DNA of 64,000 bases. Origin: Planctomycetota bacterium (GTDB lineage: Bacteria; Planctomycetota; Planctomycetia; Pirellulales; Pirellulaceae). The position numbers and the translations under genes were made by a program. The notes beneath the pieces are model-generated. The model saw only the letters and a list, made by a program, of their open reading frames with translations. It was not told where the DNA came from and made no database searches. Shown here piece by piece: positions 13,210 to 14,151 of this stretch. Positions within the stretch are counted from its first letter, which is position 1. Every line of letters starts with the position of its first letter. Location of the stretch: NCBI GenBank assembly GCA_026692905.1, contig JAPLNL010000038.1:62001-126000 (forward strand), given 5' to 3'.

Positions 13210-13290
13210 TGGGGCATTTCGACAATGATGAACTTGTAGAACTCCATTTAAGGCAATACCGGTTGGTTCTCCGGATCAGTCAGTACTCGC

Positions 13291-13462
13291 AACTTTGTCA
13301 CCTCTCCCAACGGAGTTGGGGGAGGTCGAATGGAGCCTTCAGCGACATTCGGGAGGGGGCTTGAGCTCTTCAGGAGGCTCCTTGGTTCGAATTCGTAGCC
13401 GTACCCCCTCCCGGACGAGGCTAACGCCCGTCCGACCTCCCCCAGCTTCGCTGGGAGAGGTG
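13291..13462. repeat. 172-bp palindromic direct repeat, left copy
   Basis: Differs from 13980-14151 at one base only (TTGAGCTC versus TTAAGCTC). Outer hairpins CCTCTCCCAAC-GGA-GTTGGGGGAGG and CCTCCCCCAGC-TTC-GCTGGGAGAGG also pair with each other; an inner pair CGGGAGGGGG / CCCCCTCCCG lies within. A further TTCTCCGGATCA is shared upstream (13267 and 13956) at the same 689-bp offset. The DUF559 stop codon is only 4 bp beyond this copy. Confidence 0.95.
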
Positions 13463-13465
13463 GCG

Positions 13466-13882
13466 TTACCGGCTTTTTGTGGAGTTTGTTAAGCGATGGG
13501 AGCGCATTCCGGAACGCACTTCGATATGCGGCCCATAGGTTGGCTTCAATCCCATCGATTTAGCGATCGCGATTGCAACGGCTTCTACATCGTCGATCAC
13601 TTCTTCGTTGGAGAATCGAAGAACGCGCCATCCCTGTTCTTCAAGATACTGCTGACGATGAGTATCATCCTCGTACGTGTAATCGTGATATCCACCATCG
13701 ATTTCCACGATCAACGCCAACTCGCAGCATGCAAAGTCAGCGACAAACGGGTGAACAGGGTGTTGTCGACGAAACTTTTTGTTGCACAGCCGGTTGGCTC
13801 GCAGAACACTCCAAACCAAGGACTCCGCTTTTGTTTGGCGATGTCGTAACTCGCGAGCTTTACGAATCAATTCCGTTGTCAT
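13466..13882 (-). CDS. DUF559 endonuclease-domain protein
   Basis: 138 residues on the minus strand. DUF559 proteins have a Vsr/restriction-endonuclease-like fold; their biological role is not settled. The family pattern is complete: RKARELRHRQTKAESLVWSVLR, then KFRRQHPVHPFVADFACCE, IVEIDGGYHD and GWRVLRFSNEEV. Candidate active-site residues are E20, D49, E60 and D62, with H66 close by. A clear ribosome-binding site (TTAGGAG) lies upstream of ATG 13882. The gene is enclosed by two almost identical 172-bp palindromic repeats, which suggests it moves with them or was captured by recombination between them. No methyltransferase or other defence gene is adjacent. Confidence 0.88.
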   Translation of the reverse strand: MTTELIRKARELRHRQTKAESLVWSVLRANRLCNKKFRRQHPVHPFVADFACCELALIVEIDGGYHDYTYEDDTHRQQYLEEQGWRVLRFSNEEVIDDVEAVAIAIAKSMGLKPTYGPHIEVRSGMRSHRLTNSTKSR

Positions 13883-13979
13883 CGGTTGGAGCTCCTAATA
13901 ACCAGTAGATTTGGGGAACCAAGAAACAGCAGTCCAAGGATTGTCAACGATCAGATTCTCCGGATCAACCAAAATTAGC

Positions 13980-14151
13980 AACTTTGTCACCTCTCCCAAC
14001 GGAGTTGGGGGAGGTCGAATGGAGCCTTCAGCGACATTCGGGAGGGGGCTTAAGCTCTTCAGGAGGCTCCTTGGTTCGAATTCGTAGCCGTACCCCCTCC
14101 CGGACGAGGCTAACGCCCGTCCGACCTCCCCCAGCTTCGCTGGGAGAGGTG
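13980..14151. repeat. 172-bp palindromic direct repeat, right copy
   Basis: Second copy of the repeat at 13291-13462, same orientation, 171 of 172 bases identical. The 514-bp gap 13883-14396 holds this copy plus about 97 bp before and 245 bp after it in which I see no gene. Confidence 0.95.

Follow-up and report, generated by a model that had tools for sequence, protein, structure and literature searches.

Among the dispersed repeats of bacterial genomes, the PIT (potential intrastrand triplex), also described as the G/C-rich intrastrand triplex motif (TM), has the form CCCTCTCCC-loop-GGGAGAGGG-(TTA/CCG)-GGGTGAGGG and is frequently found in inverted pairs (Holder et al. 2015, PMC4666352, and earlier PIT studies cited there). 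PITs occur in more than 260 genomes, including those of E. coli, and have been tied to genome instability; the E. coli motif forms a triplex in vitro, and no evidence was reported of a stable triplex in vivo (PMC4666352). The 2015 survey sought mobility genes near PITs and found none, named no agent of their spread, and mentions neither DUF559 nor ycjD in its text (PMC4666352). Among DUF559 proteins, a published phenotype was found only for Caulobacter VsrA (CCNA_02930), which contains the same Pfam domain; it has been interpreted as the mismatch-repair enzyme of a methyltransferase, and no discussion of flanking repeats was found there (PMC12907096). A link between DUF559 and palindromes or PITs was not found in a literature search that had most subscription papers and preprints outside its coverage.

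The window analyzed here is a stretch of 64,000 nucleotides from a Planctomycetota bacterium of the family Pirellulaceae (contig JAPLNL010000038.1, positions 62,001 to 126,000). It includes a DUF559 nuclease gene between two direct repeat copies, and the repeat that flanks the gene is the published PIT/TM repeat. The features of the locus are as follows:

13296..14149, no strand: the whole unit of PIT pair, DUF559 gene, and PIT pair; the block common to the window and G017:C70, with the outer PIT stems as its ends
13289..13462, no strand: repeat copy A, an inverted pair of PIT units; 174-bp core, with a weaker match starting at 13267
13300..13326, plus strand: hairpin of PIT A1, ACCTCTCCCAACGGAGTTGGGGGAGGT, outer, tail rightward, with stem covariation
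13327..13351, plus strand: second hairpin, CGAATG...CATTCG, between the A1 stem and the third strand, read from the sequence
13351..13359, plus strand: candidate third strand of PIT A1, GGGAGGGGG, which includes GGAGGGGG, the mirror image of the stem purine arm GGGGGAGG
13404..13412, minus strand: candidate third strand of PIT A2, CCCCCTCCC on the plus strand
13435..13461, minus strand: hairpin of PIT A2, inverted relative to A1, adjoining the 3' end of the gene
13466..13882, minus strand: DUF559 nuclease gene, 138 aa, PF04480 E=5.6e-35
13978..14151, no strand: repeat copy B, two PIT units in inverted arrangement, located upstream of the DUF559 gene; 174-bp core, with a weaker match starting at 13956
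13989..14015, plus strand: hairpin of PIT B1, tail rightward
14040..14048, plus strand: candidate third strand of PIT B1, GGGAGGGGG
14093..14101, minus strand: candidate third strand of PIT B2
14124..14150, minus strand: hairpin of PIT B2, outer right end

Near-identical direct copies around the DUF559 gene, differing at one base, had been described in the original prediction, and they were confirmed here with a length of 174 bp and a single mismatch (13363 G and 14052 A); including the weaker left extension to 13267 and 13956, the match spans 196 nt at 96%. The sequence TTCTCCGGATCA, reported to be shared at the same offset outside the copies, is indeed common to 13267 and 13956, outside the hairpins, and the stop codon of the gene (13466-13468) does begin 4 positions past the end of the left copy at 13462. 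Each copy had also been called a large palindrome: it is an inverted pair of hairpins but no single simple palindrome, as it consists of two hairpin-and-tail units placed face to face, where each hairpin is followed by a small hairpin and then by the purine run GGGAGGGGG. This variant of the PIT is characterized by the extra hairpin interposed between the stem and the candidate third strand. The compensatory differences noticed in the outer hairpins were borne out among 18 distinct copies of the genus, in which pair 10-16 is A-T in eight and G-C in eight, and pair 9-17 forms an A-T / G-T / G-C series. As single-stranded DNA, a repeat copy is predicted to fold with -54.3 kcal/mol (z = -7.2 relative to shuffles). 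An Rfam search returned no match.

The direct 174-bp repeats are present in the window because the cassette has a PIT pair on each side. Between copies A and B the similarity is 99%, whereas it is 94% between either of them and its counterpart in G021, the nearest relative, and this higher similarity within the genome than between G000 and G021 fits conversion or a recent duplication. The repeats of the window have probably been homogenized by conversion. The original reading of near identity as a sign of recent origin or conversion fits the window, but near identity is no constant feature, as in G017 the similarity between the two copies is only 79%. Besides the two copies at this locus, around eight more places in the genome contain full or partial repeat copies without the gene, and the genomes of some relatives are rich in copies, with G021 being the richest.

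In G021, synteny with the window was seen on the right flank. In G017, a unit of 85.6% identity is located elsewhere, at an unrelated position, and the outer hairpins bound the block that is shared. Deletion derivatives in which most of the gene is gone were found at G000:C98 and G021:C504. No clean single insertion was identified in the genus of the window: two solo copies are common to G000 and G021, and other solo copies are present in one and absent in the other, but with diverged surroundings. Tandem arrays of DUF559 genes with hairpins around each gene were observed at loci L072 and L073 (G006:C1, 254-292 kb) and L071 (G021:C208, 5.7-7.7 kb), with a spacing of approximately 680-890 bp and stop codons in some of the genes.

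The window protein matched the Pfam family PF04480 with 119.9 bits (cut-off 20.6), and its PD-(D/E)XK residues D49, E60, and D62 were invariant across 44 sequences. The dN/dS ratios of 0.06-0.14 among G000, G021, and G017 indicate purifying selection on the protein. An AlphaFold model had a core pLDDT near 90, and a Foldseek search with this model showed a resemblance to a solved DUF559 protein, to the catalytic domain of the homing endonuclease I-Bth0305I (E=7.8e-5), and to Vsr. The score against the Vsr model TIGR00632 was 19.5 bits, below the cut-off of 97.85. No transposase domain of a known kind was found in the window gene by Pfam domain search.

An antiparallel purine-motif triplex requires a mirror-image third strand. 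The tail of the PIT is the mirror image of the purine arm of the stem, with T permitted opposite A. As the stem varies, the tail varies with it, and the pairings observed include CCCTCTCCC with GGGTGAGGG, CCTTCCCCC with GGATGGGGG, CCTTCTCCC with GGATGAGGG, and TCCTCTCCC with AGGTGAGGG. Perfect mirror tails were present in 73 of the 96 hairpins nearest to the gene, whereas permutations gave 25.3 on average and 37 at most. Where the arms were asymmetric, 44 of 61 tails were mirror matches versus nine direct ones. At the level of sequence comparison, this covariation of third strand and stem is evidence for selection on the triplex-forming capacity itself.

The arrangement was not confined to the window. 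Among the relatives, nearly all stand-alone DUF559 genes were flanked by hairpins with sequences that differ from those of the window. In a set of 80 loci from many phyla, chosen for DUF559, the density of pyrimidine/purine hairpins fell from 5.2/kb at distances up to 150 bp from the gene to approximately 0.1/kb beyond 600 bp, and hairpins were found beside the gene in 74 of the 80 loci when one stem mismatch was allowed. The exceptions included four Legionella loci (L101, L104, L106, and L114) where PITs were lacking; in Legionella, DUF559 segments have been described as recombination hotspots (PMC12308824). Left and right flanks resembled each other in 32 of 74 DUF559 loci versus nine of 373 random control ORFs from the same loci, and the hairpin tails aimed inward at the gene on both sides (29 versus 3 on the left and 31 versus 7 on the right). 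A second set, picked by HMM only, contained hairpins at 20 of 20 gammaproteobacterial DUF559 loci compared with one of the 22 true Vsr loci taken from that set of genomes (p=8e-11).

The association was also evident for entire genomes. Of 143 gammaproteobacterial genomes, at least two strict hairpins were found in 23 of the 29 with stand-alone DUF559 versus 17 of the 114 without it (OR 22, p=8e-11), where the strict pattern overlooks stem variants such as those particular to the G105 and G179 loci. Strict hairpins numbered 25-115 in four of the five genomes with named loci and were absent from the reversed-pattern controls; L. longbeachae, the fifth genome, contained none. A search for the repeat with and without DUF559 had been suggested as a check against a coincidental placement, and such coincidence was not seen, as the copies are scattered yet associated with DUF559. 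Several genomes without a detectable DUF559 are nonetheless PIT-rich, with for example 59 and 77 copies, as may be expected after gene loss or with an undetected relative of the nuclease. In G091 (L229, G091:C8), which has 59 strict hairpins, neither DUF559 nor Y1_Tnp was detected.

The search for empty sites that had been proposed was successful at the fadB-fadA site of Variovorax, where 22 of 61 genomes have empty alleles with approximately 20 bp between the flanks, around 33 contain a cassette, and a few have a remnant or an unrelated repeat. No PIT was found at fadB-fadA in the empty alleles, and no clear target-site duplication was seen at this site. Two cassette types were distinguished: the type 1 nuclease was always accompanied by CCCTCTCCC PITs (13 cases) and the type 2 nuclease by CCTTCCCCC PITs (18 cases), with third strands that match in both, giving an agreement between nuclease and PIT of 31 of 31 that is partly clonal. 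In the topology of the flank tree, the two types are interspersed, so that nuclease and PITs are exchanged together as a whole cassette. In these cassettes, the PITs extend into both ends of the gene, so that the termini of the protein are partly encoded by PIT sequence. No residue significantly tracked the PIT type (best p=0.001 over approximately 100 positions). The fadB-fadA site seems to be a hotspot, and another repeat, around CCCCCTTGCAGGGGG, was observed there in genomes without the DUF559 cassette (L280, L282, and L283).

In E. coli, the DUF559 gene ycjD was present in approximately 3,300 of 5,426 genomes. At least 12 PIT places were found in all 36 sampled genomes with ycjD, compared with at most eight in 13 of 23 genomes without it, while some strains of the latter group keep 13-25; this comparison is confounded by clonal structure, as the correlations in both E. 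coli and Variovorax are partly clonal. The sapF-fabI loci examined included no clean empty ycjD site, and those read from strains without ycjD (L167 and L170-L174) had an MFS/outer-membrane efflux operon after sapF. No clean PIT insertion was found at lptG-yjgR and yhfS-frlR, where alleles were replaced, expanded, or deleted, and the PIT difference that could be read at the base level resembled a deletion. In strain H9 (L239, lptG-yjgR), one PIT had its third-strand portion expanded into a run of TTAGGG repeats, as by slippage. Overall, the comparisons of G021 with G000, of E. coli, and of Variovorax resolved neither a target-site duplication nor a scarless single event.

We consider it likely that DUF559 and its flanking PITs form one small selfish cassette that moves as a unit, whose sole gene encodes a Vsr-like PD-(D/E)XK nuclease specific for that type of PIT. 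The original prediction had set against the Y1 transposases a Vsr-like nuclease that moves with palindromic repeats or maintains them, and this idea gains support from the positional enrichment, the co-occurrence, the cognate swapping, and the unit at an unrelated site. We infer that the nuclease recognizes and cuts the PIT and that host repair does the copying. A PIT turned single-stranded during replication or repair would fold into a hairpin plus third strand; the cognate nuclease would recognize the folded PIT, probably as a single strand, and nick or cut beside the fold; and host repair would then copy the cassette or the PIT to another place. The spread would rely on host repair because a lone nuclease is without strand-joining chemistry. 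Solo PITs and PIT pairs elsewhere would be non-autonomous derivatives or remnants of the cassette. A narrower proposal, to which we give about even weight, is that each DUF559 nuclease recognizes its cognate PIT in the three-stranded form, in which case these would be the first mobile cassettes with intrastrand-triplex ends, a case of nuclease-triplex coevolution, and the agent of PIT spread.

Several other explanations can be considered for the same observations. DUF559 could be a homing-type nuclease whose targets are alleles carrying just a PIT or a PIT pair, which it would cut and into which gene conversion would copy it, with the PITs serving as homology arms and solo PITs being of other origin. 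The closest solved structures besides the DUF559 protein, I-Bth0305I and Vsr, the location of the window gene, which has a direct PIT pair on either side as though it had inserted at one of them, and the existence of tandem gene-PIT arrays would all suit such a nuclease; however, the empty Variovorax alleles are PIT-free, so that the presumed target is missing there, and solo PITs spread too, which leaves this explanation rather unlikely. Somewhat less probable still is a maintenance enzyme that resolves a replication-blocking fold, where something else spreads or keeps the PITs and their adjacency to the gene provides autoregulation. The link of PITs to genome instability in E. coli (PMC4666352) and the low numbers of PITs in genomes without ycjD are compatible with this role, yet some strains without ycjD live with 13-25 PITs, and autoregulation leaves unexplained the joint exchange of nuclease and PITs and the unit at unrelated sites.

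The remaining two explanations have very little probability. PITs could be REPs that owe their mobility to a Y1 (RAYT) transposase, with DUF559 as a bystander, given that their inverted pairs and high copy number resemble REPINs and that Y1_Tnp is common (94 of 143 genomes). The PIT-flanked gene was nevertheless DUF559 in 74 of 80 loci, although these had been chosen for DUF559, and Y1 was rejected as a driver by stratified counts: at fixed DUF559 the effect of Y1_Tnp was not significant (p=1.0 and 0.10), while that of DUF559 was significant in both Y1 strata. It is equally hard to credit the hairpins with a role as ordinary terminators or regulatory stem-loops for the gene, as might be supposed from GC-rich hairpins near gene ends and as was guessed, for termination, by the authors of the Enterobacter sp. 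638 study (PMC2869309). In an earlier study cited in PMC4666352, PITs showed neither promoter nor terminator activity, and terminators were rejected on the basis of the conservation of stem and mirror tail across phyla, the third-strand covariation, the presence of hairpins on both sides in opposite orientation, the dispersed copies, and the absence at Vsr genes.

Compared with known systems, the preferred reading of a nuclease-PIT cassette builds on two elements that had both been described before, the PIT repeat and the DUF559 family, while their pairing, the third-strand covariation, and the cassette behavior are new relative to the literature searched, which covered few subscription papers and preprints. 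To the PIT/TM repeat (PMC4666352), which is the same repeat as that flanking DUF559, the present analysis adds a partner gene, the cassettes, and a large number of stem variants, each with a third strand to match. DUF559, including ycjD of E. coli, is now the prime candidate for the agent spreading PITs, and since the ycjD family is present in E. coli, the origin of PITs can be tested in a model organism. An alternative reading is also offered for the DUF559-dependent DNA damage reported in Caulobacter. Vsr and I-Bth0305I-type endonucleases resemble DUF559 in fold, and the likeness to homing endonucleases is one of fold only; unlike DUF559 genes, Vsr genes are without PITs (hairpins at one of 22 loci). 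With RAYT (TnpA-REP) and REP/REPIN systems, the cassette shares one gene within inverted palindromic repeats and many dispersed non-autonomous copies and pairs. In contrast, its enzyme is of the PD-(D/E)XK rather than the HUH/Y1 type, and the PIT hairpins have no GTAG or CGTC tag, with tails that form a purine third strand like GGGTGAGGG. We conclude that DUF559 nucleases and PITs constitute cognate cassettes, mobile as units, that resemble RAYT/REP in working without being related to them, and that add a second answer to the problem which RAYT/REP address.
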